Assembly: GCA_000827325.1 (NCBI GenBank) | Contig: KN832883.1 | Location: 146,867 to 210,866 of the forward strand | Length of the DNA: 64,000 nucleotides | Direction of reading: 5' to 3' | Origin: Oidiodendron maius Zn | Lineage: Eukaryota > Ascomycota > Leotiomycetes > Myxotrichaceae | Notes under the pieces: model-generated | What the model saw: only the letters and a program-made list of their open reading frames with translations | Told to the model about the DNA's origin: nothing | Database searches by the model: none | Program-made: the position numbers and the translations under genes | In this document: positions 4,666-51,173 of the stretch, in pieces | Position numbering within the stretch: the stretch's first letter is position 1 | Layout of the letters: every line of letters begins with the position of its first letter

Positions 4666-5287
4666 AGAGTATTTCCAAAATTAATACGTTAAGTATAAGA
4701 GCACAATAATAGCAATACGCCTAGAAATTTTACTGCCTATTGAAATAACACACATCTCTGATCTTCAAGTTTCAACTCACAATAGTCGTACAATGAGCCA
4801 CCAGCCCCTACCTTTAGGCTGTCTATCAGCTAAAGCAAAAACCATGCAACTCATCTGATTCCGAATCAATCCGTATTCCAAGTCCAGAACAAACTCCCAT
4901 CCCAAGACGGAAGATCGAACTACGGTAGTTTAGCCTGGGCTCAGAGACGACTCGTTGGACTGGACCCACATTGATCTAGAAATGGAAGAATTGTCTCTGA
5001 TTTCTTCTCTTTCGGGCCTTCTTCCCACCTTGGAAGTCCCACTGGTGCCAATGCGCCGAAAATTTGTCTTTCTTCCGCGTTCCTTGTGTAGGGAAGCGGT
5101 TCTCTCTCTCAGCAACTCATAACTTGACATCACGGAGCCCATATTTCATCACTAGGTGTGGCGGTGCAGCAAACCCTTACCCTGCATAGCGCTGGACTAT
5201 GCAAGTTACGATTGATTTGTCCGTTGAATTATAGACTCATTTCTCCGATGTTACAAGTTTCGGATTTAAGGCAACCTTTGTGGGCAT
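4666..5287. other. Intergenic gap between GMC oxidoreductase and bZIP gene
   Basis: The two flanking genes converge here. I see no supported reading frame, repeat or RNA; it should contain both transcript ends. Confidence 0.4.
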
Positions 5288-22768: not shown

Positions 22769-25334
22769 CTACACCCCCGAGTCGTCCTGCAAATAAATTT
22801 CCGTCGGCGTATACGCATCCCACTTCACACAGGTATCTTCAAAAGCTTCTTTATCCGCGAGGGCCATCGTGATTTGGCTCGGAGACTCCACAAATTGCAA
22901 CCCCAATCCCTCAGATGCATGCCAGGCGATGTGGCAATGCATGATCCAAGCCCCGGGGTTATCTTTTTTAAACGCTATGGCTAGATAGCCGTTGGCAGGC
23001 AAGGAGGCCACGTCTCGACGCGGCGGATTTACAAGGTTCAATTCACTGGTTGCGAGATCGAATGCCCCTTCTGCTTGGCCAATCACCCAGAAGTCGTGAC
23101 CGTGGAGGTGGATTGGGTGTGAGAGCCTAATAATAGGAAGCTATTAAAATGTTTGCCTAAGGTATTGGAGACTGGCTTACCCAATGCCGCTTTCGTCTTT
23201 GATGACATAGACAGTCCATTCATCAGATGGATTGGTTTGCTAGATGACCGTCAGTATCGCGAGTAGGAATGACGAAAATTGGAATCCTACCTCGACAGAT
23301 ACCACATTGTATTCGGTAGGGAACGTTGACTGGTTGTTTACGACACGAAGAGTTGTTGGATCGGACCAATTCATGTAAAGACTGCTACTGTTGATAGTCC
23401 ACATGAAATAACTTTCGAAGACAAAACTTAAAGTCTCTTGTGTGACTTCGGAGAAATTTCCAACATTCATCGCCAAGTGCGGGACGAGATTGCTCAGTGG
23501 TTCATCGGCGCAATTGGATGTAATGGTGATGTCTGAAGTAGTGACCGGATCTACCGTGCTGCTCGCATCATATCTTATAATTCCTGTCATATCATCGGCA
23601 TTCTGGTTGGCAGCACATGCAGCCTGCCAACCGGATCGAAGCCAATAGTCACCAGGTTCAGCGTTTGCTTCGACAATGAGATCATAGCGCTGTCCTTCAC
23701 CAATCACAATACTATTAGTCTCATAAGGTACGATAGGTACCAAGTCATTGGCGATGACTGTGAGATTGTGTCCATCAATAGAAAATTGGAAATGCCCCTC
23801 AATGGCTACGTTAATCAATCGAATTCTGTACCTTTTCCCAGGTACAAAAACAGTTTCGAATTTCTTACCACCTCCAACACAGTTCGGATCGACAGATGCT
23901 GAGCAATTGTAGGTATTAGTGCCGTTGACTAATCCACCGTCCAGAGATGGAGGGCCAGCGGCTCGTGCGCTGTCCCATAATGAGAATGCCGATGTATGAG
24001 ACCAGTCAGAAAGGAACAACAAGCCGAGGTCCTCGTCGTAGTTAGCTGTTGCTGGTCCGTTAAGAATCAAAGGGCCAAAGAGGCCATCTGCGTACTGAAG
24101 ACTAAAGTGAGAGTGATACCAAGTAGAGCCATATTGAGTTGCTCGGAATCTATAAGTCATGGTTCCGCCAGGCGCGATTGGGCATTGAGTAACACCAGGA
24201 ACCCCGTCATACTCGGAGGAACCTAACTGTCGCAGGCCATGCCAATGGATCGAAGTTCCATTATGCTGTAGATTGTTCACGACATGGATTATAAGATTGT
24301 CACCCCAATCAGCGATTATGGCCGGGCCCGGAATAGTGCCGTTAAATGTCAGAGTATACCTTTCGTAGCCATCAGGAGCAAGTGTCGTGTTTTCAATTGA
24401 CAGCCAGTATTCTACCTGCCGTTAGTGGTGCCTTTGATTGATGGAGATGTTCTACCTCTTGTAACTCCTGTGTCTGGCACGGTAGAGTACCAGTCAGTGT
24501 CGATCGAGTAATTTCCCCAGCATTGTCTCGAAGTGGGGGTATTTTCACAGTAGTTGCTGCACTGGGCTCCACAAGATGTTGTTGAAGTAGTTGTTGAAGA
24601 GATTGTAGTTGTGGTGCTGGTAGAAGATGAGTTGTCGAACGTTGCTGTTGCAGAGGATATCGTGGTCCAAATGGTTGAAGAATGATTTGAACTTGACTGA
24701 GAAGTTCTGGTGATAGTCAAAAGAGTGGATGAGGAGACATAGGCAGGGGGCTTGGAGGATGTCAGAGGAGGCGAAATATTTCCGGCACTCGACAAAGATA
24801 GTTTGCTCGACACAATTGTGGGGTTCTAGTATTACTAGTAAGCTTAATTGGGCGGGAAGAGGAAACATTTGCCCACCAAGGTATTTGGTCCAGATACCGT
24901 GGAGTAAATAAAAGTACTATATGTGCTTCATTTGTATTTCAGTATTAGGTGTCGAAAATTCAGAGGCAGAAGATACGGATAGAAAACCTTTGGAAGAACT
25001 CTTACCTGGATTTCGAAACGGTGCTATGACCAGAACCAAGTTCTGAGGTGGAAAGAGTAGGAATGGAAAGAGTAGGAATTCCGGAGTTAAAATTAGATGA
25101 CTGTCTAACAGACGCCGGAAAGGTACCAGAAATGTCTGGGGGGATATTAGATGAAGGGGATTGTGGTGTTGGAACTGAAGTTGAGTGGATTAAACTTGAA
25201 GCCGATGTTGTAGGACACGTAACAAAGATTGACGTTCTAGTGATAGTGACTATTTTGTCCTGAAGGATAGCATCAACACTGGAAAAGAAAGCAAAAGCTG
25301 CCCAGGCCGGCAAAACAGACTTAAAGATCAACAT
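22769..25334 (-). CDS. Laccase 2 with long Ser/Thr-rich N-terminal extension
   Basis: Minus-strand exons are 25334-25006, 24825-24456, 24411-23291, 23239-23181 and 23126-22769. Exon 1 does not join exon 2 in frame directly. A 19 nt microexon at 24916-24898, with its own GT/AG borders, restores the frame and gives 751 residues. That microexon is tentative. The signal peptide is MLIFKSVLPAWAAFAFFSSVDA. About 170 residues of Ser/Thr/Pro-rich sequence follow, with a repeated TITRTS motif and a CGAQCSNYC cluster. The laccase core then starts at CWGNYSID. The copper clusters are HWHGLRQ, WYHSHFS, HPIHLHGHDFW and HCHIAWHASEGL. The chain ends in the classical DSGV. A heavily O-glycosylated stalk of this size is unusual for a laccase (normally 560-620 residues) and could tether the enzyme to the wall or spread it from the surface. 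Confidence 0.85.
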
Positions 25335-27860: not shown

Positions 27861-29526
27861 TATATACACTGACTTTACATCACTTTGTCATAGCTGTGGT
27901 AAAAGGTATGAGGAGGAACTGAGGTTAATATGTGGCGAAATGTCAGATATCGTTAGTCAGACAATTATAGAAGCCCGGTTTTGTTCTCGGATCACCCGTA
28001 CCTGGTATCTTGTCTCCTTGGCATATGCAACTGGCTTATGCTAAGCCCTCTGGTTCAAGCGATTCTGCAACCTTTTCCTCTGGGTAGGGCTCGTAATACC
28101 GGTCCAATCGTCGCTTGAATTCCTTAGATCTGGAATATGGTGGGTTTTGGAGAAGGCTAGCCCCCGGAAAGCACGGTCACTGCTGGTTGCAAGTTGTTCA
28201 TTGCTAGCGAAAGCGTTTCAATTGCAACAGCGTGGAGCAGGACAAAGTGCTAGCTTACGACGATCCGCTAATATGCCGGTTTAGTCCATTATCTCTTTGT
28301 AGTAAATAACAGCCCCCACTCGTGGATAGTCAGGTGTTTTGTTGCATATCGCAGTGTTATCTCCGACGCGCAATAAAGCCCGAAGCTGGACTAGGTTAAT
28401 ATAAGGGGGAAACTAGCAGGCCCCGGTATTTCTATGGGAAATATAAAGAATCACCTATTTCCAAAGTTCGGTGAAATTGCCAGCTTGCCGTATTTCTACG
28501 TCTTCACAAATAATGATGGAAGTTAAATCGTCATGTAAATCTGCGGAAGCCCAACTTTAGGCTCCATGTATATAACTCTGAGGAGGCCCGGCTTGCCTTG
28601 TATTATATTATACAGGGCCCAAATAATGGCCAATGGCAGAGTCCCTCTGTTTTGTTGAGTCAAAGTTGATTAACAAACAACCCTCATAGGGTCGTGTTCT
28701 TATATAATTGCAGCTGCCGTCCATGGCACTGGCTTCAATATTTGGAACCGCCAATCGTTAAGAAACTATGCTATTTTTTAGGCAGTCTTCATGCTAAAAA
28801 GCTTTACGAGGAAAGATAGCAAGGATGTAGGTCAGCCTAGGATTTAATGGTCCTTGAAATTTTAGGCGCCCAGATCTGGTGATGCTGATTTGTGTTAATG
28901 TCAGGCGTCGACCCGTTCCGCCGAGACCGGATTCTGTTGTAGTTGCGCTTCTCAGCCAGCCACCAATTACCTACTCATAGTCTATATTTGGCCAGCTTTG
29001 CTTCAACTGGAGCATCAGGGCTGTCACGCTCGTAGCGCCACCTCCGTAAAGGCGGGCTCTCCGATTGGCGCAGAAGTGAGAAATTTTACGCTGAGCCAAG
29101 GCAGACATTCTTAGCAACATGTGACTTGGGATTGTTCTCTGAATCGAGTAATTTGACGAATAACCTTAGGTTTTGATCAAATTGCGCTTTCCAAATTGTT
29201 CCGAAATTCACGCATTGCACAAAGTTGGCGTTTCTAGTGCTTCAGCCCCATTCCAATATTTTAGTACCAAAGCCGCGGCACAACTTAGTAATGTCTCCTA
29301 GTGGACAGCCTTGTCTCATGATTTCCTATGGCTGTGCAAATAAGTAAGGCTTAATACTGCCTGATTATTCAGAGCATTTTAGAGGCAGGATGGAATGTAT
29401 TAGGAATAAGGGTCTGATCAAGGTATAAGAAACAGCGCTTTTCTACTCTGTTTTCTATATCTGCATCTATTCAACAGTTTTCTACCTTCTCCCCCAAAGA
29501 AACTTCATTGACCTACGAGTTTCGCA
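27861..29526. other. Gap of 1.7 kb without a recognised gene
   Basis: No supported frame or repeat. A TATAAG box at 29424-29429 and pyrimidine-rich DNA before 29527 look like the promoter of the next gene. Confidence 0.4.
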
Positions 29527-30318
29527 ATGAAAACTCTCACTCTATCTGTTCTGGCTTCTTGCCTCTTTTTAGTGCATGCCCTCCCAACATCTATTACCGC
29601 ACCTTCCACTGGTCTCCCCGGCTACGCTTGCAGCGTCCCCTCAGGGTCCACCTACACCCAAGTCGAGTATGTCGAAAATCTCTGTGGCTCCGGCCTCCAG
29701 CCCTATTACCTCGTTGTCAACCCAGAAGACAGTCTCTGGGCTTGTCTACAGGTAGACGGTTTCGTGTACGACAAAGTCCAAGCATCAACGGCTTGTTCGC
29801 TCACTGGAAGTGCCATCCAATACCATTTGCGGAAACCAGTCGATTTACTATGGAGCTGTGGACCCGGAACTTACAACGGGTTTGTTTACGATGATGTCTA
29901 TGACGGTGGTTTCTGCTCTCTTGATAATCAAGGTCTCGAAGGCAGAGATCCATTCTATCGTATCCGCGAACCGGTCGACGGATTAGCATCTTGCGCGCAG
30001 ATCACAGGGTTCGTCCACACGCAAGTGTGGAATGCCCCAGCTTGTGCGTTGGGAGGATCGTATACAATGTATACATTGAAGAAACCGGTTGATGGGCTGT
30101 GGGCTTGCGGACCGGGAACGTATAATGGGTATTCGTATGATGATGTGGTAATGAGTAATAACTGTGTGTTTGGTGAAGAGGCACCGTATTATCATTTAAG
30201 GGAGCCAGTTCCAGGAGTTTGGGTTTGCAATCCTCCTAGCGGGTTCCCTTATTCGCAAGAGAGAACCGTCGATACTTGTGAGGTTGGAGCAGAGGGGACC
30301 CAGTATTTATTGTCGTAG
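29527..30318 (+). CDS. Secreted six-repeat cysteine-pair protein
   Basis: A single exon of 263 residues. The signal peptide is MKTLTLSVLASCLFLVHALP. The mature protein is built from six tandem units of 38-45 residues, each with two cysteines: 35/53, 73/90, 111/130, 156/173, 194/213 and 234/251. The unit pattern is C, then an aromatic Y-x-x-V stretch, C, then Y-x-L-R-x-P-V-D-G-L-W immediately before the Cys of the next unit. The linkers EPVDGLA, KPVDGLW and EPVPGVW make the periodicity obvious. This implies a rod or disc of small disulfide-closed modules. I do not recognise a named family. A surface-binding or effector-like role is possible but is inference from secretion and cysteine content only. 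TATA at 29424 and a clean single frame support the start. Confidence 0.85.
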   Translation: MKTLTLSVLASCLFLVHALPTSITAPSTGLPGYACSVPSGSTYTQVEYVENLCGSGLQPYYLVVNPEDSLWACLQVDGFVYDKVQASTACSLTGSAIQYHLRKPVDLLWSCGPGTYNGFVYDDVYDGGFCSLDNQGLEGRDPFYRIREPVDGLASCAQITGFVHTQVWNAPACALGGSYTMYTLKKPVDGLWACGPGTYNGYSYDDVVMSNNCVFGEEAPYYHLREPVPGVWVCNPPSGFPYSQERTVDTCEVGAEGTQYLLS

Positions 30319-30931: not shown

Positions 30932-33217
30932 TTAACTGTAGGACTCTTGTTGCTGGAGAATATCATTTTGAAAGCTCTGCACAATAGAATTCCAATCCAC
31001 CAAATTCATCTCTACACCCAAGTCAGGCACCGCACCTAGAAACGGATCATCCCACACAGAATTATTCTGTGATGCCTGGATGGGAACATTAGTAATATTA
31101 TCTCCCAAATCCCGAGTATATGCAGCACAAAGCTCATCAACTTGAGTTCGTGGAGTAGCTTCCCTATGCAAATTCTGCGCCTGTTTGAAAATTTTTGGTA
31201 GCGGCTGCCATAGCATGCTCTTCTTAATTTTGACGCCCGGAAGATGTATGATTCCATTTTCATTCTTAGAATCCCCAAATACTGCCTCCAGAGCTCCACG
31301 CTCGATCTATCGCAGTCCCTTCATTCCCGTTGTAAAGTTCAACGAAGAGGAAGACAATCGCGTGCCATAACATATACTTGCAAAAGAACCAACCAAATTT
31401 GGCCGATCTCTCTGGTAATTGCCGCGCCATATCGACTACTTCCGTATTACATTCTAATAGTCGCTCATTGACCTCTTCTCCACCTAGAGGGGCACGAATG
31501 CTCCGAGAATGGTTGTAGACGGTCCTCCACAACTTTGCAATCATCAGCCGCGTTCCAAGATCTACAAGGTGGTGAAGATGCAAAGATGTGTCCAGATATT
31601 TAAAATTTGTGCTCTCATATCTGATGTTTATATCTCGAACTAATTTTTCCATCTTTTCGAAGCACATAGGGGTGGTTCTATCTCGCCATAATTTCAGTTT
31701 TAGACCAACCTCTGCTACTTCAATTTTGATAAGGCTTATTGTCATCTCCGAGAAGCCAGTCCTTAGAATTAATATTTCTGTGCCAGCTACATCAATGTCC
31801 GAATCATTGACATGAAGGGGCGGCTTTGTGTCCGTAGTCGTAGGGATATTACAATCTAGACCACAATCCTCGGAGATGCGACTATCGAGCAGACAGAGTG
31901 CCCACCAAACGCGGCGACGTACTTCTATATCGACAGTACTAAGTGATAAGAGCATGCTATCGCGACGCATGCCCATAGCCTGAGCAATGCGTACGGCCAT
32001 GCCAGTCAGCATCCATGTAAGTCGAGTATCCTTACTAGGAGCAAAAGTCTACATATATTTAGTAAGTAAGGCATCCAGGAAGAATGCTTTGACAAAGAGC
32101 TATAAAGGACTCACAAGCAGCAAGATAATTGCCTGTAAAACCTCAATCTCCTGTGATGTCAAGAGGCCAGTTTTTGCGAGAGCTTGCTCCAGAGCATATC
32201 GATATCTTCTAACCAGCAACCCCCTCTCCTCGTGGTGTATGTTTAAACACTCCTCAGATGACAGCGATGTAACACTTGCAAAATAAATTGCGAAAAGTAG
32301 CGCTTCAGTTGAGGCGCCTATTCCGTTTGAATCCTTAGTGTGGCTCATGATTAAAACTTCCACAGCCGGCTTATAAATTATTTTTACTAGTATGTCTACA
32401 TTGTGAACGTAGGACTGCCATAGCAGGTTTGCGATTTCGGTTGACGGATAATAGTGTCGGAGGTCTCGCTCTAAATTCGAGCCATTGAACAGTGAGCTAC
32501 CATTGAAGCCATCGTCAGGGTCTGCTGTCTCCAGCAACTCCGAACTCAGCGACGTATAAGACAGATCGCCTTCCTCTCCTGTTTGTTGTGCGGACAGCAC
32601 TCTCTCAAAGGTTGCCACCTGTTTCTCCAATTCAAAGAAGATTGTTAGTCGCTCGAAAATCTGACCCGGCGGAAGATAACGACTGGAGGTTCTACCTGGT
32701 TTGATTTGAGACGGTTGATATACCGCGATTTCCCTTGAGACACAAAGAGTCTTCCTTCGTCGGATTGCCGGATGTCTTGTCGGGATTGGAAGAAGCGATC
32801 ACGCATCTCCCGAGGAACTAGTAGATCATCACAGTCATCATCTTCATCACCACCGTAATTGTCATTGTCATTGCTACAGCTGATGGGCGTTAGAGGATCC
32901 CTTTTACGACAATGCCTGTATTGAACGCTACTACTCGTCCCTGCTGCTACCAGCTCTTCTGCGTGACCTGCGACGGCGGGCGCCAGCGGTCGCCTAGTTA
33001 CGACCTGCTGTAGTTTCTGGCTCCTTTGTGTGCGCCGAGACGCATACACGCATGGGACATGGGATTTCTTGCAAGAAATACAGCCAACGATGGCTCGGTC
33101 GCACTTGATTTTGCGTGAGCGACACGTGAGACAGGAGTACTGGTGAGGGGCTGGCGTAATGCCTGCTGCTGACGATACTGGAGGGAGAGCGTGATGATGA
33201 CGGTAATTTTTCTTCAT
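30932..33217 (-). CDS. Zn2Cys6 transcription factor (possible late frameshift)
   Basis: Minus-strand exons are 33217-32696, 32618-32115 and 32048 to 30932. The zinc cluster CLTCRSRKIKCDRAIVG then CISCKKSHVPC has the classic C-x2-C-x6-C-x6-C-x2-C-x6-C spacing at residues 29-56. The fungal_trans middle domain is marked by YPSTEIANLLWQSYVHNVDI and DTRLTWMLTGMAVRIAQAMG. Family members are nuclear activators of catabolic or secondary pathways. In the last exon the frame DRAWSSGGS ends soon at a stop, while skipping one base near 31296 gives DRAWALEAVFGDSKNENG, which continues through MLWQPLPKIF to the stop at 30932. So the gene carries a one-base insertion, or the assembly has an error. It diverges from the nitroreductase at 34383 and is the natural candidate regulator for it. 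Confidence 0.85.
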
Positions 33218-34382
33218 GCCGGAGAATATTGATGTTCAGGTTCTGCTGATATTCCAAGCGGTTTATCCTTTGCACGAAAAGTCTTACCTGAACCCAACTT
33301 CTAACTTAAGGGGTGAGAATCAAGTGGGTCTCGGACTTTCGGACATTTCAGCCAATGAGACGACATATTGAAAGAATGGTGAAGCTTCGTTGACTTTGAC
33401 AAATTCAAGTTTGACAAGCACGCTAATTTTATCATACATCAACTGCCAGCTTACAAACTATTTACATAATGGTATGAAACTGATCTCAATACATCAGATA
33501 ATTTAAAATTAAGCGTTTGGCGTTGACAGGCTTTCGGACATTTCAACCAATGGCAGGTATCTAGCTGGAGAAACACCTTCTGAATCCCTCCCAACCGCCG
33601 CTATAAAAGACGTGGCACGTGTAGGATCTACGCGCCAGAGCTAGATGTTTTCTGGAATGGGTATTGCTGTCGTAATCTTTGTGCCCAGAGCTGGCTGAAC
33701 TAGTATCCCGCGCACCTGTGCGGTGGTGTGTTGGAACGTTTGGAATTTTGAACTTACTTAGCCATTGTCTTTTGCATTCTGCTGCGCCAGAATAAACCTA
33801 AGCAGTATTAGGTAGCGCTGTCGGGAATACAATGGGCCCAATTCTGCCTCGGCCAAGAGATGAATGCCTCACTCTGCGGCATTAGTCAATCCGTGCTAAG
33901 CTTCTCCGAAATCCCGACAAGTGAAATGTGCGCGCGATCTTATCTCCGTAGATGTGCTGCTCTCGATGACGGGCCTGAGAAAGGGACCACATCTTCCCCG
34001 ACAAATGATCCCCATCCATGATTAATCGCTATCATAGAATTGCTCAGCACTATAGAGATGATTACAGGATATAGAACGCTTGTGCAAGGTCTCTACGACT
34101 GCGGTAATTACTTCGGCTCCTGGGTTTGCCGCTCGCGGTCAGAGTGATATGGCTTGATCCGTATGCTGCCACCATACTTTTGTCCCCTGGTACAGTAGAT
34201 GATTATTAGTATCTTGTAAGCTAACATAAATGTCTTCTTACCGCTCCTCTGCTGTGACGGGCAGTTAGCAGTAGATGCGTAATATTACGACTCTTTATTT
34301 CCACCTTCACTATATTCCAATACTTAAGTCTTCTCAGCAGCCATTACAGCTGTAGCAAAATATCTCTCACTCTACCCACGCT
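33218..34382. promoter_or_regulatory. Divergent promoter of Zn2Cys6 regulator and nitroreductase, with repeated element
   Basis: A 22 bp element occurs twice in the same direction, at 33336-33357 and 33531-33552, with one mismatch. Its core is TTTCGGACATTTCA followed by CCAATG, so each copy joins a CGGA half-site to a CCAAT box. Zn2Cys6 proteins bind CGG-type half-sites, so these are candidate operator copies. Their position nearer to the regulator suggests autoregulation (inference). Confidence 0.55.
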
Positions 34383-35075
34383 ATGTCCTCCCAGTACCTA
34401 GTCGCCGTCAAGGCTCGCCGTACTTACTACCGCCTTAAGAAAGAGTCTCCAATCGATGACGGACAGATTCAAGATATTATCAGTCAGGCTATCCTCCACG
34501 CCCCTTCCTCGTTCAACAGTCAAAGTTCCCGCAGCATTGTACTGCTAAAAGATCAGCATGACAAGCTGTGGGACATTGCCAAGTCTGCCCTTAAGGCTGT
34601 GGTTCCCGCCGACCAATACTCCGCCACGGAAAAGAAGCTAAATGCATTTAAGGGCGCCTACGGAACTGTGAGTCAGGTCATTTTATTTTGTTAAACTCCT
34701 CCATGTTTACCACTTTTTCTTCCCTCAGTTAGGTTAGAATGTGTTTAACATGAGCAGGTCCTCTTCTTCGTTGCCCGCTCCACTGTTAAGGACATGCAAG
34801 ACAAATTTGCCTATTACGCCGACAAATTCCCTGTCTGGGCTGCCCAATCCGATGGCATGGCCCAACACATCACCTGGACCGCCTTGGAAGCAGAGGGTCT
34901 TGGTGCCAACCTGCAACACTACAACCCTCTGATCGACGCTAGTGTCAAAAAGACTTGGGACATTCCTGAGGACTGGGAGCTTAGCGCGCAGCTTGTCTTC
35001 GGTACCCCGGCTGAATCACCGGGTGAGAAGCAGTTTATTGAGTTGAGCAAGCGACTCAAGGTATACGGCGCATGA
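34383..35075 (+). CDS. Nitroreductase, Frm2/Hbn1-like (FMN-dependent)
   Basis: Two exons, 34383-34667 and 34758-35075, give 200 residues, close to yeast Frm2 (about 193). The N-terminus has ARRTYYRLKKESPI, then HAPSSFNSQSSR (the FMN-binding R..F / N-S-Q region), GAYGTVLFFVAR, and WTALEAEGLGANLQHYNPLI followed by QLVFGTPAE near the end. These are the conserved landmarks of the Frm2-type nitroreductases of fungi and bacteria. Yeast Frm2 and Hbn1 act on nitroaromatics such as 4-nitroquinoline N-oxide and influence oxidative stress and lipid signalling. Here the downstream gene is a 4-hydroxylaminobenzoate lyase homologue, so the likely role is reduction of a nitroaromatic acid to its hydroxylamine. 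No targeting signal is visible. Confidence 0.9.
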
Positions 35076-36384
35076 GTAAAGCATGACTTACGGACTGCAC
35101 GTATTGGCGGAAGTACTTGTATCGATTGCATGTCTTCGGTATTATTTTTGTGCTCTTAGACGTTGTTCGTTAGCGTGAGCGGTACATGCGCATGAATAGA
35201 TCACGCATATCCAATTTACAGAATGCGTTCCTCTTTACTTTGCTTTCTGTTGCTTCAGAGCCCCAAGCGAGGGTCGTTGAAGAAGGGAGACTACATTCAG
35301 TACACAACTGTCCTTGGTGTCTTAAGGGTCCATGTAAAGAATCTAGAACCGTACGATTAAGGACTCTAACATGTATAACAAGCTCTCACTCATGTATATT
35401 AAATTCTGCTTTACCTCTGTAGTTAAGAGCGAATTCAATAAGCTTGGATACTCACTTACCACTTAAAGATATGATGACGAGTACCTACTACACACTGGCC
35501 AGGTAGGTAGGACATATACGGCATTGAATTATCCAGTAGTCGATCGTTTTGGCTAATGGAAACACAAAAAGATCAGAAAGCCTAGATCGCACATCTAGTA
35601 GATTATACATTCGTTTTCTACAGGCGGAGTAAATTCAAGTTTAGGAGTTAGTCTTATGGCATATCCAGTCCACCTACGAGCATCTCTGCTAAGGTATACT
35701 TGCTTTCCACAATGGAAGATGGGGGTTACACTAAGCACGTGCAAGCTTTAATAGAAAGCTCGAGGAATGCGTCAGGCTGCCATATAAAAGAAAACGCTTG
35801 GTGTTTCTTTACCATACCACTCGTAATTCTCGTAAACACTCTCATACGCCATAGCGTGGCTGGGCGGAAAGTACGTCTGACCAGCTGCTAAAATATTTAC
35901 TCGAGAAATTCTCGTCGCTGCAAGTCGTATCTTCTGCCGTTATTAGGCGATTAGGTGTGTTGGGCTGCTGACAATTTCGTGAGGTGGCCATTAGGTCAGC
36001 CCACATGCAGAGACATGCTCTCCTGCCATCCGCCTCTGACTTCCTTTCGTATAATCTGTAGAGATTTTATTGTGGAGCTAGGAAACTAGCAAGAAAGCAT
36101 GAAAATCGGTTGACACGGAGTTACGGAGATATTTTCGTCTCCCCGTGCCGTAACCGAGTGCGAAGTGCGAGGAAATTGGGGACACAGGAATTACCCACAT
36201 GGACAGCTTGAATCCCGACTTTCGATAGGCGTAAAAACTAATGAGCTCATACTTTTCTCTCGATATACCTTTTCTATATATACAAAGTAGGAGCCACGCG
36301 ACGGAAGTTCGGTTTTTATGCGGACCAACTAACGCATCCAATATTCCTCTGTTCTCTATCTACTAGAGCTAGTTCTCGAAGAAG
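35076..36384. other. Gap between nitroreductase and lyase homologue
   Basis: About 1.3 kb. It should contain the nitroreductase 3' end and the lyase promoter. No gene was recognised, and I did not find a copy of the 33.3/33.5 kb element here. Confidence 0.35.
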
Positions 36385-37127
36385 ATGGACAATCCTGGCA
36401 TTCTCGCAAATACAGAAGTGGATCTTGAGAAGAATCCCACGGCCAAGAAGCTAGTCACAACGTGCCGAGAATTCTTCAGCGAGGTTGACAATTTGTGAGA
36501 TGCCACACCCGGCCTCCCAAGCACAAACACTTACTGAAACAGGACGCCTGGCATGGCGCTGGAAGCGAGATTGAACAGAGCATATGGACCCGGAAACAGG
36601 CTCTATGAGGATATGTGCAGGTACGTCCGTGAAGGTATCAAGGAGGGGTGGGCTGCAAACGTAGAGCTGGATGGGCCAAAGTATCGTCGAAGCAGGATCT
36701 GCCTTCCATCGCCAGAAAATCGCTTCTTCAGTATCACGACTGTCTATATGGACAGCGAGGTGGAGTATTCCGGGTATGATTCCTCTCGTTTAGTCTGATT
36801 CAATGAGCTGGGTCATACGTTGCGCTCTCGCATACTTTAAGATCCACGATGCTTGCCGTGATCAAGTATTTACTGACCTGTTGTTCTAACTTCAGTCAAT
36901 ACCACGTTCATCCATACGGAGAAATTAACTGCGTTGTCCAGATTGATGAATCTGCCGAGCTGAAAGGAATGCAAGGTTGGCAGGGCGCTGGATGGACTTC
37001 TCCTGGGCCCGGAACCCACCATCATCCGCAGGTCCGGAAGGGAGCGCTTGTTGCGTTGTTTTTCTTACCTGCTGGGAGGATTTCATACAACATGAAGCCA
37101 GGACAACCCCAGCCTCTTTCCATATAA
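36385..37127 (+). CDS. 4-hydroxylaminobenzoate lyase-like protein (DUF4863 family)
   Basis: Exons 36385-36494, 36543-36773 and 36896-37127 sum to 190 codons plus stop. The C-terminal half reads QYHVHPYGEINCVVQID, then AGWTSPGPGTHHHPQV and VALFFLPAGRISYNMKPG. From memory this matches PnbB-type 4-hydroxylaminobenzoate lyases (PF14975, formerly DUF4863), about 160-190 residues long. The HPYGE and THHHP histidines are the expected polar core. In Pseudomonas, PnbB converts 4-hydroxylaminobenzoate to protocatechuate and ammonia after the nitroreductase PnbA. The same two steps seem encoded here within 3 kb and on one strand. The protein should be cytosolic. The family assignment comes from motif memory, not a search. 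Confidence 0.75.
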
Positions 37128-38221
37128 CTGCTTAAAAGCAGCTTCATCGCGGCCATAGATGGAGCCTGAGCTGATTTAATTAGTTAATTTATTAGACTTT
37201 GCTTTAGTGAGTTAAAGAGTTACAACGCTGCCTGCCCTTCAAACCCTCCAGCGATAATTAGCTCATCTTCTACTTATCTCTCAACCTCCTTCCCGTGAAG
37301 AGTCTCATACTCAAGCCAGGCCTAGGTGTCTTTACTAGATATTAGGAAAGTGCTACCTAAGGTACCTTCTATTTACATAACCTTACTGTCCAACGTCCAT
37401 TATAGGCGAAAGGCTCCTAGTTAAAACTTATACTTACCTTATACTATGGTGGGGATAAAAGTGACAACTCGATTTAGAAGCAGAGGCATAGAGGAGTAGT
37501 TGAATTCGTGCAGATTAGGCTTAGCACATTCGCTTACCTGTAGTCAAAGTCAGTAGGATAGAGCATATAAGGGTCAGTGGAATCATGTAATTAAGTCGCG
37601 CATTTTTAGATTCGGTTTAGCTTAAGTCGATTTTAATCTAGTTTAATTATGATTTATTACAGTCGCTGTGTGGTCTCCTCCCCGTCCGTACGGGTATGTC
37701 CTAGCGAGCCACGATGCCACTCTCTAACATCGCACACAAGACTATGCTATTCCACCTACGCCCTATGGCGTTTTATCCCCTGGGCGACAATTTGGGATGC
37801 CGGTTAACGAACTTAGTGGCTACATAAGGCAGCTAATAATAAATCTCATGCCGTACCCTTTCCCGACTCTCATATCAGTCACTTGGGTTACCTTCAATGC
37901 CTTTGGAGTATAGAGGAGGCGGCCTCATGTTGGTCAAGACCCACCAACCTGATGATTAGGGCGAAAAAATGGAAATAGGATATACAGAGTGAGAAGGCGA
38001 CTAGGCAATAGGGAGCATAGGTTTAAGCAGCTGATTTAATACTTCATGTCACTAATGCATATAGTGGGGGGATAAGATCCCACATGCTAGCGTACTCTTC
38101 GAGATGGATATTAATCTCTCCTCTTTCCCTTGCTAACGCTTTATTCCACTCATTCATATCGAGTACCCGATACGCAAGGTTGCCTCTTTTAAAACTATAG
38201 TATATTAGGTTAGGCTGGTTA
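37128..38221. other. RIP-affected AT-rich flank of the Copia element
   Basis: About 1.1 kb, richer in TpA than the gene DNA to the left. It has no supported frame and no recognised element end. It may be an older, unrecognisable repeat. Confidence 0.35.
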
Positions 38222-38226
38222 TATTA

Positions 38227-38489
38227 TGTTGACTAGGACCTAGGGCTTCAGGCACATTTATATATACTATACATCTGCCTACTAGGCTGCCTACCGGTGC
38301 CTATAAGGTGACCAGGTAGGAGCCTATTTGGTGACTCAATTGAGTGTACAGTATTGAGTATAAAAAGCTCTAGTTCTCCTAAATCTCTTCTTACTTTAGT
38401 TGTCTCTACATCACTCAATAGTCAATATAACTGAGTTTCACCTTGATTCCAAACTACAACCTGTACACCTATATAACCTCAGTTCAAGA
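38227..38489 (+). repeat. Left LTR of the Copia element
   Basis: 263 bp, beginning TGTTGACTAGGACC and ending CAGTTCAAGA. It holds a TATA-like AGTATAAAAAGC near its middle. It is clearly less RIP-altered than the right copy. Confidence 0.9.
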
Positions 38490-40697
38490 GGTTATAAGCC
38501 CGGCTGCCTTAGGTTAGTCGGAATCACCCAGATTCAACTCAAATCACTCGAATAGGCAGCGATCATGACCAACCAAAGCTCCAGCTCAATGTTCCTCCCT
38601 AAGCCTATGTAGCTAGAGGGAGAAGATAACTATAAAGACTGGAAGGACAATATAACCCTATTCCTAGGCTCGAAAGGACTAGCCAAGTTCATCAAAAAGG
38701 GGTCGATTATACCTGAATCAGATAAAGTCGACTGCTAGAGAATGATATACATAATATCAATTAAAGGGTTAGTTCACCCTGAACCAGCTATAGGGCTTAA
38801 GGGAGTTACAGATCTAGCCGAAATAATACGCCTACTCGACTAGAGGTACACCTCAACTAGGTGGAACCTTAAGTATAAGCATTTGACTGAATATAATACC
38901 TTGAGGGTTGAATACCACGACTTGATTAGTGTATTTATTAACTAATATAAGGCTCTTAAGTCAAAGCTTGATATGATTGGACTACCCCTACTAGAGGAGG
39001 TTTATACAATCAACTTTATTATACTCCTAGATATACAATACCCTATATAGGCAGACTGGTAAAGGTCTAATATATATAAAATATCACTAATACTGCTAGA
39101 CCTAATAGCTGATATCCTAAACGAATCCCGGAAAGCAGAAAAACCAACAACTGCACTATATAATAGAAAGCCAGCTGCTAATAAGGGATATAAGGGTGGT
39201 AGAAATAAGGAGACAGTCAAATATAGCCACTATAAAAAGGATAGCTATTATAACAATAGCTACTAGATAAAGTACCCTAAACTAAGACCCTCTAAGGGCA
39301 AGAGCTAGAAGAAGAAGGATAATGATAAGGATAATACTCTAGCACTCTTAGTAATAGCTCTTTTGACTAAGTTAGGGCTAGACTAATACTTCTAGTGTTT
39401 TGATAATAGTATAGTATTATATATTATATATATATATACCAACTTTAAGTTGTATACTCTAAACAATAGGTCTTTACTGACTATATTAACAGCTAATAGA
39501 CCTGCTAAGCTACTAGGTAGTAGTATAGTCAGAATAGAGATCAAGGGTATTAATAGTAAGCCTCTAAAGCTAGAGCTAAAGGATATATTATACTTACTCT
39601 CTATACTAATTAATCTCTTCTCTAGATAGCTATTTAAAAAAAGTATTAGAGGAGGCTACTTTAAGAAAGGAGTCCTCTATACTAGTAGTAATAAACCAGT
39701 AGCTCTAATCAAGACTATTAAGTTAGAGTACTTCCTAAAGGTAGTAAAGAAGCCTATATTTATATATATATTATTAAGCTTAGTAAAGCTAAAGCCCTTA
39801 GACCTATAGTATAGATATCTACTATATACCTTAATTGATAAGGTAAAAGAGACAGTATAGATAACAAAGGGTATATCGATTAAAGCTAGCTAATCAGAGC
39901 TAGAGCTAGAGCTAAGCCTATACTGTATATACTAGATAGCTAATTCAATTCAGAATCTATTATATATACCTTAATTAAGGTAACGGAATATATTTAAGCT
40001 AGTATATATCGATATTAAGAAGATATTACTAGTTAGCTTCAATAGCTATATATAGGCTAGCCTATTTATAGATAATACAATATATACTAGATAGGCCTAG
40101 TCCTTTAAGAATAAGGGTAATATATATTATTTAATTATATATTTCAACTAACTAGTTAAGATATAGTAGAATACTACTATAAAGGTATATCGAATTAATA
40201 GAGGTAAGGAGTATAGTAGATATAAGCTAGCCTAGTATCTAAAGAAGTATAGAATACTAGCTAAGGTTACTACTCTCTATATACTAGAATAGAATAGTAT
40301 TATAGAGTATATAAACTATATAATATTCAGTAAGGTAAGAAGTACTATTAAGGACTTTAACCTACTACTAGAATTATAGTCTAAAATACTACTAGATATA
40401 GTATATATTATAAATTATATAGCTACCTTATTACTTAATAAGATAACTCTAGCTAAAGTATTTAAATACTAGATCTAACTAGGATTATAAGATACTAACT
40501 ACTTACTAGATATTAACTACCTATATATCCTAGACTATAAGGTATATATAAATATCTTTAAGGAAAGATAGATTAAGAGTATAAAGCTAGCCCCTTATAC
40601 TAAGGAAGGCTATCTAGTAGAGTTTAAAAGAAATAAGATATACTATATCTATCTCCTAGATAGGGCTTAAAAGATTATATAATCATTATACTATATA

Positions 40698-41131
40698 ATG
40701 TAGTTGTATAGTAAGCGATCCATGACAGTAGGCGATCCAGCTAATTTTACTACAAAAAGCACGATTTTAAAACTGCAATAACTTAGCCATTTCTTAGTAT
40801 ATTGATGTAAAATTAAAAATCCCAGCTATTTACTTATATACGATTAATATTTGAGCTTACCTTAATTATCTATTAAGTAGTTATTGAGTTCTACAGGTTA
40901 AGGTCAAATTTAAGGCCAAAATTTAGCCAAAATCTAATATCTCTAAAGTTTATAGCCTAATTTCTTTTAAATTCCTAAATATTAATCGCATAGAGGTAAT
41001 TAGCTAGGATTTTTAATTTTATATTAAAATATTAAGAAATGGCTAAGTTATTGCAGTTTTAAAATCGTGCTTTTTGCGGTAAAATTGGCTGGATCGCCTA
41101 CTGTCATGGATCGCTTACTATGCAACTACAT
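40698..41131. mobile_element. Foldback MITE nested in the Copia element
   Basis: This 434 bp element is flanked by the TA dinucleotide (40696-40697 and 41132-41133). Its terminal inverted repeats begin ATGTAGTTG.ATAGTAAGCG and match almost perfectly for about 100 bp, then more loosely for about 70 bp more. Only the central 90 or so bases are unpaired. A TA target and long inverted repeats without a coding frame point to a non-autonomous Tc1/mariner-class element. Its arms are far less decayed than the host element, so it arrived after most of the RIP damage. Confidence 0.85.
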
Positions 41132-43325
41132 TATTTAATAAATTAGAGCCTTAAGACCCTGAAAAACCTAAAGACTCTAAAAATATAGATAATTTAATCT
41201 AGCTACTAGAGGAAATCAGATATATCCCTAAAGCTTCTAGCTAAAGGGAAGACAGTAGCTTTAATTAGGAATATAACCCCCTCTTGACTATAGTAGTCAA
41301 TATAGAGGTAGAATAGAAGGATAGTAATAGTGATCCTAATACTAATCTAGAGTCTATATCTAGAAAGAGAGGTTAACTAAAAGGATTAAAGAATAAGCTA
41401 AGAGCTTTAGAACTACTAACTATTCAACTAGGTTCAGAGATATCTAGTTAGATAGGACTACCTAATCAAATTAATCAAGAGGAGTCTAGTTAGAGGAGTA
41501 AGAAGATACCTTAAAATAGCTAGAACTAGCCTTCTCTAGATCTCTTAAATTATCTAAACTAATAGATTACTTAATTATATACCTAGAGTAATCTAGCTAT
41601 ATTTATAATTATATTACTAGCTATATAGGTTAGTAGATATATAGCAGCTATTTTAGACTAAAAGGAGCTAAAAACAGTCCAGGAGGCTAAGGACTTACCT
41701 GACTAGCTAGAGTAACTAGAAGCTATATATATAGAGCTAAGGTCTCTAATTAAAAATCAGACCTAGAGAGCTATATTAGTTAGTAAAGGCTACCTTAAAG
41801 CCTAGAGCAAGAAGGCTCTAGGTATTAAGTAGATATTTAAGATCAAGTATAATACTAATAACTAGATTATCTAGTATAAGGTATACTAGGTAATTAAAGG
41901 ATATAAACAATAATATAGCCTAGATTATAATCAAACCTTTACTAGTATTATATATATAGCTATCTAGAGGATTATCCTAGAGTTAGTAGTAGTAAACAAC
42001 TAGATAGTAGACTAGATAGATATTAAATCAGCCTTTCTATATAGTAATATTAATAAAGAAGTCTATATTAAACTACCTAAAGGCTTAGAGCTGTTCCCTA
42101 ATATATTCGATTTAGAGGATATAGCTTTATTACTCTAAAAGGCCTTATATAGTCTAAAACAGTCACCTTAACTCTAGTAACTTATCCTGAAAGTAGCCTT
42201 TAAAAGGCTAGAGTACCTACCTTTAACTATAGATTAATATATATATTAATATACTAATATAGGCTTAATAATCATTATATATATAGATGATTTCCTGCTA
42301 ATTGGACTATAAGAGGGGCTTAAGAAACTAAAGCAGTAGCTATTAGAGGCCTTTAATATAAAAGACTTAAGCTAGTGCTACTACTTCTTAAAGGTTAGGT
42401 TTATATAGGATAAATAGAGGCACTAGGTAACCCTCTATTAGGATATATATATATATAAGACTCTAGATCAGTTTAGTATACTAGAATATAGAGCTATATT
42501 AACACCCCTTAATCCAGGAGCTAGCGAATCACTAGTCCTCTACTAGAGAATAGCCTTTAAGGATCAAATTAAGCTCTATTAGTCTCTAGTTAGAAGAATC
42601 AATTACCTAGCTACTTAGACAAAGTATAATATTGTATTTATAGCCTCTATATTATTATAGTTTCTGGTTAATCTAGTACTAGCTTATATTAAATTAGCTA
42701 AAAGGGTTCTGTAGTACTTTAAGAGAACTATAATATATAGTATTACCTATAGAGGTATATAGAGACTAGACATCAGGCTATATATAGACTCTAATTATAC
42801 TAGAGACTAATATATATATAGGTTGATTAGTAGATATATAAGCTTTATAGCAGGAAGGCTAGTATTATAGCAATCGAAGCGATAGTCAGTAGTTACTTAG
42901 TCTAGTATAAAGGCTAAGTATATAGCTATATCAGAATCAACTAAAGAAGTAATCTAGATATATTACCTTCTAGAGGGATTAGAATATAAGGGTCAGGACT
43001 TGAACCCTATTACCCTATATAGAGATAACTAGGGTATACTCTTATTAGCTGAAAACCCTACCTTTTATTATAGAAGCAAGTATATAGCTGTCTGCTACTA
43101 CCTAATATACCAGGAAGTCAAAGAAGGTAGGCTACAACTAGCCTATATACCTATAGATTATATATCAGCTAACAGCCTAACTAAGGCCCTGAAATCACTA
43201 GTATATACAAGGTTTATACAACTTCTAATGCTAGTAAAGGAGGTTAAATAAGGAGGGTATTCAAGGTGTTTTCACTTAGTCAGGAAGTATTAGCTGAAGT
43301 ATATATATACACTTAGCTAGGGGAG

Positions 43326-43588
43326 TATTAACTAGGACCTAGGGCTTCAAGTATATTTATATATACTATATATCTGTCTACTAGGCTGCCTACCAATGCT
43401 TATAAGGTGACCAGGTAGGAGCCTATTTAGTGACTTAATTGAGTATATAGTATTAAGTATAAAAAGCTCTAGTTCTCCTAAATCTCTTCTTACTTTAGTT
43501 ATCTCTATATTACTTAATAGTCAATATAACTAAGTTTTACCTTGATTCCAAACTATAACCTGTACACCTATATAACCTCAGTTCAAGA
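43326..43588 (+). repeat. Right LTR of the Copia element
   Basis: 263 bp, the same length as the left LTR. About 22 positions differ from it and all are C-to-T or G-to-A here. Confidence 0.9.
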
Positions 43589-43678
43589 TATTATATAAGC
43601 TAAGGCAGGTTACTTAAGTTACTACTTATAGTTTGTATTTGATTCTATCCTATAGCCTCCAGCATTGAAGGATATTAA

Positions 43679-44113
43679 TTATTGGATGATGTCTATAGCG
43701 CCAAGCAGGAAAGTATATCCTTTATGTCTAAAAACACTTAATATTAGCCTCTTTATATACCTATATGATAATTTTATAAACTTTAACACAGGGTTATAGT
43801 TACTTACTAGCTCTAGAAGTAAGGATAATATCTCCTCTAACTTTCCTTGTCTCTTAATACTGCCTATTATTATATATATAGCTGAAAATTGACGTTCTTC
43901 CTCAACTAGTGCAGCTTTATTCCACTCCTTTCGTAGTTTCTCGCGCTTTAGATACCTAGGATAGTCCTTCAACACTTCGTACCAAATATCTTCCACAATA
44001 ATCCAAAGAGTAGTTGCAGTAAGTAGAAGAATCACAATCCCAATAATGCTAATAACTATCCCGATAATAATCCAACTAGGAATAGAGATAGCTTGGGGTG
44101 ATATAGGAGCCAT
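43679..44113 (-). CDS. Hypothetical small membrane protein, possibly a relic
   Basis: An open frame of 144 residues lies between the Copia element and the next LTR. Residues 13-38 form one strong transmembrane segment (WIIIGIVISIIGIVILLLTA). A charged region follows, YPRYLKREKLRKEWNKAALV, with helical character. The frame is rich in Ile, Leu, Tyr and Lys, as AT-rich DNA gives, so it could be a fortunate survivor inside a RIP-affected island. No family was recognised. The long open frame with a sensible membrane-plus-cytosolic layout argues mildly for a real protein. Confidence 0.35.
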   Translation of the reverse strand: MAPISPQAISIPSWIIIGIVISIIGIVILLLTATTLWIIVEDIWYEVLKDYPRYLKREKLRKEWNKAALVEEERQFSAIYIIIGSIKRQGKLEEILSLLLELVSNYNPVLKFIKLSYRYIKRLILSVFRHKGYTFLLGAIDIIQ

Positions 44114-44261
44114 TTTCTTCTAGGTATATCAGGCGGATATAAATTATAGGTGTGATAGCACGCCACTGAATTATGATATAATAATACGGGAGTGGAAGCA
44201 ATCGAATTGTATTCTAGACTAAGGGGTGTAAAGGAGTGTGCGACTACGTAGTCTTATATAA

Positions 44262-44550
44262 TCTTGAACAGAGGCAATATAGGTGCACAGGTTGTAGTCG
44301 GATATCAAGGTGAAACTCAGTTATATTGACTATAGGCTTTCGGTATAACAGATATGCAGAAAGCAGTAGATAACTTAAGTGATGCAGAAACAACTGAGGG
44401 GATTAGACTACAGAACACAACACTTATATACCTGCTTAGGTGGCAATATACGTAAGCCCTTACGACTATACAGTCGTATGCCATTGCGTATGTTGCCACT
44501 AACCCTGAGACATCGTGATATATGTGCCTGAAGCCCTGACGCAGTCAACA
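44262..44550 (-). mobile_element. Solo LTR of the same Copia family
   Basis: 289 bp on the minus strand, opening TGTTGACTGCGTCAGGGCTT and ending CTGTTCAAGA. It is flanked by a perfect 5 bp duplication (TATAA on the plus strand at 44257-44261 and 44551-44555). It is a fossil left by recombination between LTRs and is moderately preserved. Confidence 0.85.
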
Positions 44551-44555
44551 TATAA

Positions 44556-45399
44556 TAAAGCCAGAAAAAATATTCTATGTGTGCGTAAGTAAGTGAGTGT
44601 AATCGAATGTAATACCCGGAAACGTAAGTGTGGATGCACAGACGTATGTGATATGCGCATAAGTAGTCGTCATAATAGATGACTATATATTTGTAAATCT
44701 GATAAAGCATTAGGGGTCGTTATTTTTTAAGATTATTTTAACATACTATAGCAGAGAGGAGGCAATATTCCGAGTTAGTACTGCATATTAGCAACTAACA
44801 ACATGACAGTAGTAGCTATTACATCGCGATATCATACCCGGCATCGTGTGTCGTATTCGATGTCTCATGTACATGACGTCGAATGTCGTACCCGAATTGT
44901 AAAGGATGTTTACATGACATTAGCGACGAAGAGTATTATGGTGGAAGCATCTTAATCTAATCGCTAGCAGCAGATAGAGCCTACAAGGGAGGCACGTCAG
45001 ACGTATTTACATTGCGCGTAATTTTCTACAGTTATGGCAGAGAAGGCAGGAGAACATAGGTTTTTACGGCATATCTGTACACGTCCGTTAACGGCAGACG
45101 ATTGTATAGGTAAGTCGTCCCTCTTGCAGCTTTCTTACCGATACTAACGGACCGTAGGAATAGAATATATGAGCGCCAGCGAGTACCTCTACCACTAGTG
45201 TTACATTATACCGTGCGCGGAGCATGCTGTTGCTGTAGAGCGTAAGCGAGCTACCTAGGTTATTTATACAGCGTTTGACTAAGTACGCCCCCACTTTATC
45301 GAAAATGACGGGATACGCCCTCACATATTAGGGTAATTACTATATACGCCTTTTGACTTATCTTAGGCCAACTTAGGTGGCACTGTAGAATAATTTGTC
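44556..45399. other. Gap with a local palindrome
   Basis: A near-palindrome centred on CATGTACATG lies at about 44857-44890, with arms ATTCGA.GTC. No gene was supported. The left part is still AT-rich; the right part returns to gene-like composition. Confidence 0.4.
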
Positions 45400-49607: not shown

Positions 49608-50444
49608 TGCTAGAGAATTTAGTGAAGGGAACTGCTTGCATGCATAGGACCTAAGGAGAGAATAAATGGCTTCTGAGATTAAGGGAATCGAGTCTATTCA
49701 ATCATACGTTCATGTACTGGCGATTTTTCGGACCTATACAAGCCGATTTTGCAAACAACTGTACCGCTTTATTGTCGCTAAATCTATATAATGGAACGAA
49801 GAATATGCTCCAGTCTTAACGACTTGGACAATACAGCTAATAGTTTCATTCACGGAGTTACTGACTTGCACGAGTACCGGCCCACCGAATAATCCATCCC
49901 ATGGTCTATTAAACCGTGACCAGGTTCTGTACATGCTTTTGCCCGAAGTGGCGATGAAGATGGCGCCCTAAGCCGCACATGTTTATGGTCGCTGAAGAAC
50001 GAACCGCAAGGACCTGCTATGTGGGGGTTGGGTCTGGTGGCTTCTGAATCGTGCTTCCGAAAAGAATGCATCCCTCGGCTGCACATTTCGCACTTCGGAC
50101 TTGGCAGCTTCCCCCGACCCGCGCCTCGAACTAATAGACAAACCTTTCACCAATTATTTTGACCCTTTTTAACAGGCTATTTAAGCTCTTACGAATCGAT
50201 ACGTTCATGTAGAGTAGTCGCGTGGTGTATAATTATTAAGCAGTACGATTGGTAATTGTATCACGGCAAATCATACGGCTGTTACTTACCACCGCTGATT
50301 TAAATTATTTTTAATCCATTTTACTCCCGTACTTCGTCCTCCTTAGTCCCGCCTGTTTTTTTCTACCCTATCTCTATCTCTATTTCACAACTTGTCGACT
50401 TCACAGTCCGGTTTTGCGTATACAGTAACTTGACATTTCTCAGT
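49608..50444. other. Intergenic gap upstream of HD-domain gene
   Basis: About 0.8 kb. The right end is pyrimidine-rich (CTATCTCTATCTCTATTTC near 50370), as in many fungal promoters. Nothing else was recognised. Confidence 0.4.
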
Positions 50445-51173
50445 ATGTGCAAAGTTGCAGAAGCAGGCCACGGGGCAACCTCATATGAGGAACAAATTGA
50501 ATATCCTCTCAGCTCGCACACCCCCGACACGAACCTCAGCAAAATAGTCTACGACTTTGCCTCCCAGCATCTCCCCACTGCTATCATGAATCATTCCCTC
50601 CGCGTCTTCCTCTACGCCTCGCACCTATCAACGGCATCCCAACTCCCGTCAGCGTCACCGACACGAAGGCCCGAAAGCAGCGAAAGATTAAAGGATCTTC
50701 TATTTATTTCAGCCATGTTCCATGATATGGGAACCTGCTCTCTCTTCAATGGCCCTTCGCGATTCGAGATATGCGGTGCTGACGCAGCCGTGTCTTTTCT
50801 GCAGGCGCATGCACCCGAGATTCCGGCTACGGAAGTGCGTGATGTTTGGGCCGCTATTGCGTGTCACACATCTCCTGGTATCGGGGAGGAGATCTGCCTA
50901 CTATCCAAGTTCATCCGATTAGCAGTGATGTTGGACTTTGATCTCTCAGGCTTAAGAGTGGAACTTGGGGTCTTGGCGTTGGCTGCAAATCTTGATGGAA
51001 GACTTCCGAGGCTGGATATCGAGTCAGTATTGAGAGATGCGGTCATAAAACAGATCTTGGAGAAAAAAGAGGGAGAAGAGAGAAGGAAAAAGGCACCCGA
51101 GAATAGTTGGCCAGGAAGCTTACTGAAGGGTGAGCTAGAAAAGCAGGAAGGATATGAACAGCGTGAGAAGTAG
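50445..51173 (+). CDS. HD-domain protein, cyanamide-hydratase (Ddi2)-like
   Basis: A single exon of 242 residues, starting at the first ATG (MCKVAEAGHG). The HD-domain metal-binding order is visible: NHSLRVFLYA (first His), SAMFHDMGTC (the HD doublet), then AIACHTSPGI (later His) and VMLDFDLSG (Asp). This order and spacing fit the fungal HD proteins called cyanamide hydratase or urea-hydro-lyase, of which yeast Ddi2/Ddi3 are members. Those turn cyanamide into urea with zinc. The C-terminal 35 residues are unusually rich in Lys and Glu (KKEGEERRKKAPE) and are not part of the domain. True substrate is unknown, as this family has many paralogues. It is probably cytosolic. Confidence 0.85.
   Translation: MCKVAEAGHGATSYEEQIEYPLSSHTPDTNLSKIVYDFASQHLPTAIMNHSLRVFLYASHLSTASQLPSASPTRRPESSERLKDLLFISAMFHDMGTCSLFNGPSRFEICGADAAVSFLQAHAPEIPATEVRDVWAAIACHTSPGIGEEICLLSKFIRLAVMLDFDLSGLRVELGVLALAANLDGRLPRLDIESVLRDAVIKQILEKKEGEERRKKAPENSWPGSLLKGELEKQEGYEQREK

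Follow-up and report, generated by a model that had tools for sequence, protein, structure and literature searches.

A Frm2-type nitroreductase gene beside a PnbB-family gene in Oidiodendron maius: a candidate fungal module for nitro-aromatic acids

The bacterial breakdown of 4-nitrobenzoate leads through 4-hydroxylaminobenzoate to protocatechuate (excerpt of PMC9590159). The pnbA-pnbB module for 4-nitrobenzoate has been described in Ralstonia pickettii YH105 (PMC9302171) and, according to a reference entry, in Pseudomonas putida TW3 (excerpt of PMC10466732). We have analysed a stretch of 64,000 nucleotides from the fungus Oidiodendron maius Zn (contig KN832883.1, positions 146,867 to 210,866; referred to here as 'the window'), which carries a Zn2Cys6 regulator gene, a nitroreductase gene and a gene of the PnbB (4-hydroxylaminobenzoate lyase) family. 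The three genes are real, their models having been rebuilt from the DNA. On the most likely reading, which we hold at about even odds, the locus would serve as a small fungal module for the catabolism or detoxification of a nitro-aromatic acid. The window belongs to contig C14 of a genome of 45.9 Mb in 58 contigs and bears fungal marks (intron-bearing genes, Zn2Cys6 regulators and multicopper oxidases).

The locus resembles the bacterial module in combining a gene of the lyase family (PF16155) with a nitroreductase gene and a regulator. It differs in that the nitroreductase is of the Frm2/CinD and not the PnbA type, the regulator is a Zn2Cys6 protein, the genes contain introns and the two enzyme genes are 1.3 kb apart; in addition, our alignments set the window protein against PF16155 relatives, among which there is no experimentally characterised PnbB. 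PnbA and Frm2 represent separate subgroups of the nitroreductase superfamily, the structure 2ifa being a Frm2 representative (excerpt of PMC6017928), and the window nitroreductase shares its subgroup with yeast Frm2 and bacterial CinD. Another comparison is the onb/nba pathway for 2-nitrobenzoate, which uses a 2-hydroxylaminobenzoate mutase (excerpt of PMC5817917). Here too a nitroreductase yields an aryl hydroxylamine, and PF16155 relatives occur in similar gene settings, but the mutase retains the nitrogen and the relatives in such settings are about 30-38% identical to the window protein and lie outside its clade.

In fungi, 'p-hydroxylaminobenzoate lyase' genes have already been named for three wilt fungi (VDAG_07609, VDBG_05667 and FOXG_15608) and are recorded as missing from three further Fusarium species (Table 3 and excerpts of PMC3145793). 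By name, rather than by sequence, these share with the present gene their function, their occurrence in fungi and their patchy distribution; they differ in that the word nitroreductase does not appear in the main text of that paper. A search of the open-access literature, judged mostly by titles and the beginnings of abstracts, found no paper on the function of these lyase genes and no description of a fungal nitroreductase-PnbB pair. An earlier note on this DNA knew of no described fungal cluster of this kind; for the pair, the search within this scope agrees, and for the lyase the statement needs amending. The bacterial pathway is well known and a fungal counterpart is plausible.

The nitroreductase and the PnbB-family protein

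The nitroreductase gene (34383-35075, plus strand; exons 34383-34667 and 34758-35075) has a single GT-AG intron of 90 nt and encodes 200 amino acids (aa). Its product matches PF00881 with an E-value (E) of 1.1e-23 (84.7 bits against a cut-off of 23.5) and has significant matches in the Protein Data Bank (PDB) to 8cqv, 1ywq, 2wqf, 4bn6, 2ifa and 4urp (E 5.3e-59 to 9.5e-33). Those to CinD (2wqf, E 4.6e-50), 2ifa (3.9e-44) and Frm2 (4urp, 9.5e-33) are near full-length; against three bacterial PnbA-type proteins, the best blastp result is E 0.005 over 71 aa (a Cupriavidus protein). On these similarities the protein is assigned to the Frm2/CinD subgroup, outside the PnbA subgroup. The earlier note was right in calling the nitroreductase Frm2-type; the parallel that it drew with bacterial PnbA and PnbB needs qualifying on this point. 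An NCBIfam search with the nitroreductase gave no match above cut-off, and a PnbA-type query found nothing in the fungus's own genome, in a search run without a positive control.

The genome contains at least 11 places that match the nitroreductase, nine of which reach E ≤2e-15 on at least one piece. The nearest paralogue, on contig C1 (locus L013, 4284-5245), is 75.5% identical and has an N-terminal extension of 61 residues, missing from the window copy, that by eye looks like a mitochondrial targeting sequence. Another paralogue, on contig C53, has a stop codon within the matching stretch and is adjoined by nitrilase-like frames; this arrangement is at L014, 4543-4824 and 3484-4398.

The PnbB-family gene lies on the same strand (36385-37127; exons 36385-36494, 36543-36773 and 36896-37127), and is interrupted by GT-AG introns of 48 nt and 122 nt; its start is 1309 bp from the nitroreductase stop, in agreement with the 1.3 kb given earlier. 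Its 190-aa product matches PF16155 with E 2.2e-70 (235.9 bits; cut-off 26.9), with residues 26-178 aligned to profile positions 2-153 of 153, and is up to 61% identical to bacterial relatives. This confirms the family to which the earlier note had assigned the protein, although under the wrong accession: PF14975, the number given there, is DUF4512, so that the refutation test built on it is void. PF14975 has no match in this genome and likewise none in 14 control genomes, and the search says little beyond the name. Searches with the PnbB-like protein gave no match in the PDB sequences at E up to 1 and no meaningful match in NCBIfam.

If ten nitroreductase and two PnbB loci were placed at random in the genome, the expected number of pairs this close would be about 0.0024, a figure that comes from a rough uniform model and was calculated once the pair had been found.

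The PnbB-like protein and its relatives were compared in 90 alignment rows (L022, whose frame looks broken, was left out and L025 gave no PnbB row). H117, H119 and E123 are kept in all 90 and H156 in 89 (the exception is L089), and the motif read from the alignment is His-x-His-x3-Glu ... His. The general cupin motif is of this type. An AlphaFold2 model of a relative from Rhodococcus koreensis (L029, PF16155 E 4.3e-67), built from a 32-row alignment, has a mean predicted local distance difference test (pLDDT) score of 90.9; it combines a beta fold with three helices and has a weak end (residues 160-166). In a Foldseek search of this model cupins came out best, headed by the dimethylsulphoniopropionate (DMSP) lyase DddQ (E 2.5e-05). 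From the model and the alignment we predict a cupin family in which the His/His/Glu/His residues, of metal-site type, are conserved; it has been called cupin-like in print (excerpt of PMC6449761). PnbB is accordingly predicted to be a metal-dependent cupin, which metal analysis could check.

The third gene encodes a Zn2Cys6 transcription factor (about 33217-30932, minus strand), for which open frames match Zn_clus (E 6.7e-08) and Fungal_trans (E 3e-12), both above the Pfam cut-offs. A tentative four-exon splice model (33217-32666, 32618-32115, 32048-31394 and 31281-30932) is uncertain at introns 1 and 3. The regulator and nitroreductase genes are divergent, as the earlier note had described.

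Bacterial PnbB loci and the origin of the fungal genes

There are at least two PnbB loci in the genome, the one in the window and one on contig C21, whose products are 67% identical. The collections searched for relatives outside the fungus's own genome hold no fungi, and the relatives found in them are bacterial. A single-sequence search of genome contigs with the fungal PnbB gave 35 pattern matches and no relative; the alignment-based repeat succeeded, and the best 80 of the 245 relatives that it found were used as bacterial loci. Viral contigs gave 13 pattern matches and no relative.

A PnbA-type nitroreductase (at least 80 bits) lies within 300 bp and on the same strand in 58 of the 80 bacterial loci, which bears out the precedent invoked in the earlier note, and within 2 kb in other arrangements in a further seven. 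The other 15 have none at the 80-bit threshold; in at least three of these (L038, L078 and L087) the contig stops close to the gene, and in L070 a weaker nitroreductase-like frame (28 bits) adjoins. The fungal pairing differs from these loci: the fungal nitroreductase is the best query for no frame in any of the 80.

Plasmids provide a more varied picture. Ten regions were viewed from 26 plasmid records with a PnbB relative. In three, an annotated nitroreductase adjoins the DUF4863 gene (49-56% identity; no paper on DUF4863 was found in the open-access literature), and in a fourth (50% identity) there is no nitroreductase in view. Four of the remaining six have an NAD(P)H-dependent oxidoreductase, annotated or fused, adjoining or one gene away, and two of these four also have a 3-hydroxyanthranilate dioxygenase nearby; one relative sits in a benzoyl-CoA operon and one, whose frame looks broken, comes after a gene for an FAD-dependent oxidoreductase. 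In a Rhizobium bangladeshense plasmid (L025, 6998-8101), the annotated DUF4863 protein continues into a stretch that resembles a flavodoxin-like reductase, which points to a fusion or else to an error in the frame.

A tree was built from the 90 rows (two fungal, 80 genome loci and eight plasmid loci), with frames of more than 195 residues trimmed to their last 195. The two fungal copies group together (support 100/100) and are nested in a clade of 49 rows, the other 47 of which are from Pseudomonadota (91/93). Within this clade they join a Roseomonas/Rhizobium/Bradyrhizobium group (97/80). In this tree of the best relatives, they fall in a group whose members adjoin PnbA-type nitroreductases. 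The position suggests transfer of PnbB from a proteobacterium, with a certainty limited by the long fungal branches, the midpoint root and a sampling confined to the nearest bacterial relatives and these two fungal copies.

By eye, the window and C21 copies share an intron position. The nitroreductase, for its part, is not of the PnbA subgroup and is 75.5% identical to a paralogue in the same genome, and the module therefore looks as if it was put together inside the fungus and not brought in as an operon. The simplest history would be that PnbB alone was acquired and that a native nitroreductase was duplicated beside it.

The proposed pathway and its alternatives

In a module for nitro-aromatic acids, reduction of the nitro group by the Frm2-type flavoprotein would give a hydroxylamine, which the PnbB-type cupin would rearrange and deaminate to a catechol, such as protocatechuate, and ammonia, as its family membership and the bacterial lyase suggest. 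In the lyase reaction a metal would help the N-hydroxyl group to move to the adjacent ring carbon, and hydrolysis would then yield a catechol and ammonia. Ring cleavage would fall to intradiol dioxygenases encoded elsewhere in the genome, and the genes would be turned on by the divergent Zn2Cys6 protein. A proteobacterium is the most likely source of the PnbB gene, whose introns would be later gains; a duplicated fungal nitroreductase appears to have been recruited beside it, replacing the bacterial PnbA-subgroup enzyme.

The second PnbB gene has a different setting. On C21 (G000:C21:217200-227100, with positions counted within this segment), the PnbB gene (about 4477-5083, minus strand) has a Zn2Cys6 regulator on one side and a divergent flavin monooxygenase (frame to 7467, plus strand) on the other; after the monooxygenase comes a major facilitator superfamily (MFS) transporter (from 8575, plus strand). 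In the gap between PnbB and monooxygenase, an 11-bp repeat with a CCG core occurs about five times (5274-5339) and might be an array for a regulator. Above the Pfam cut-offs, the monooxygenase has matches to FMO-like and N-hydroxylase profiles, whereas no NCBIfam model is matched above cut-off; it could produce an aryl hydroxylamine from an amine. One acquired type of aryl-hydroxylamine lyase might then be fed from two sides, by reduction of a nitro-aromatic acid in the window and by N-oxidation of an amino-aromatic acid on C21, an idea that we consider doubtful.

Several observations weigh against a dedicated nitro-aromatic module. The nitroreductase family has at least nine loci in the genome, so that the window enzyme could be a general stress enzyme, and the second PnbB copy has no nitroreductase on its contig, none of the 22 matching pieces being on C21. 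Intradiol dioxygenases have 12 matches at ten places in the genome and none inside the window, and Pfam recognised no transporter among 24 window frames and two spliced proteins, which represent part of the window's genes. On the side of the PnbB-like protein, the template modelling (TM) scores of the 50 Foldseek matches listed are low (0.21-0.55), the alignments lack a characterised PnbB, and the surroundings of PF16155 relatives vary (3-hydroxyanthranilate dioxygenase genes next to some, the benzoyl-CoA operon around one), so that membership of the family does not fix the reaction. Nor is the pairing obviously general in fungi, since in Verticillium dahliae VDAG_07608, the tag next to the lyase VDAG_07609, is listed as a polygalacturonase/pectinase-related gene (excerpt of PMC8224799), assuming that consecutive tags are neighbours. 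Finally, a comparison of the nitroreductase promoter with that of PnbB revealed no common operator: one 12-mer is the longest exact word that they share, apart from a few 10-mers, and joint control is thus no more than a proposal.

These points bear on what else the locus might be. The two genes could be neighbours without a common pathway, the nitroreductase serving, like yeast Frm2, in general stress defence or detoxification and the partner enzymes of the PnbB-like protein being encoded elsewhere. This would account for the many nitroreductase loci, for the 1.3 kb between genes that have no clear common motif and for the C21 copy, which sits with a flavin monooxygenase instead. We nevertheless hold it to be rather improbable, because the expected chance proximity is about 0.002, just such a pair would be expected from the bacterial PnbB loci (58 of 80) and a divergent regulator is present. 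It is slightly less probable still, in our view, that the PnbB-like protein acts on another aryl hydroxylamine, or is a mutase with an aminophenol as its product, and serves to metabolise an aminobenzoate or a natural nitro compound, 4-nitrobenzoate not being its substrate. The neighbourhood of 3-hydroxyanthranilate dioxygenase genes, in which some relatives are found, is that of the 2-nitrobenzoate mutase OnbB (excerpt of PMC5817917), and these relatives may themselves be mutases; the benzoyl-CoA operon (excerpt of PMC6449761) and the C21 monooxygenase, which could N-hydroxylate an amine, point in the same direction. In the tree, however, the fungal copies group with the PnbA-linked relatives and lie apart from the four long-branch rows of other settings.

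A bacterial contaminant or mis-assembled contig is a negligible prospect. The relatives outside the genome are indeed bacterial, in collections that hold no fungi, but both the nitroreductase and PnbB-like genes have introns, the copy on C21 has one at the same place (by eye), and the neighbours include fungal-type regulators and multicopper oxidases. Contamination was rejected on the introns and the fungal neighbours.

Should the nitroreductase and PnbB work together as proposed, they would give a eukaryote a compact way of taking the nitrogen off nitro-aromatic acids and would show how a fungus can rebuild the function of a bacterial operon from one transferred gene and a duplicated native gene of a different subgroup. 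Little-studied fungal lyase genes, such as those of the wilt fungi, would become directly testable. Feeding from two sides, if true, would be a modular way to strip nitrogen from aromatic rings, and a case of a bacterial pathway re-assembled by the fungus's own enzymes around a single transferred gene.

Promoter elements and other features of the window

The gap between the regulator and nitroreductase genes contains two copies of a 22-nt repeat on the plus strand (33336-33357 and, with one base different, 33531-33552), a possible site for the regulator. These are the only two matches to the element in the 45.9-Mb genome at up to three mismatches; a reversed control gave none. The PnbB start is preceded, at a distance of about 230-280 bp, by an imperfect palindrome rich in CGG/CCG (36106-36157). 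Its self-complement score of 20.0 was reached in one of 200 mononucleotide shuffles of a 70-nt stretch that had been picked after inspection, and as a possible Zn2Cys6 site the palindrome is suggestive only.

Just downstream of PnbB, positions 38001-45000 form an AT-rich block (GC content 26-41% per kb) in which just one frame is 130 aa or longer, and which may consist of degraded repeats. The window also includes two multicopper oxidase (laccase-type) genes (8448-10111 and 23240-24421, minus strand) and a 268-aa frame (29512-30318, plus strand) with a signal-like start and, by eye, repeated Cys/Trp motifs, which has no Pfam match above cut-off. An HD-domain protein (50304-51173, plus strand) is weakly similar to the cyanamide hydratase family (44 bits, below the cut-off of 109.85); an HD-type frame, recognised by eye, likewise lies just upstream in a Bradyrhizobium PnbB locus (L062).

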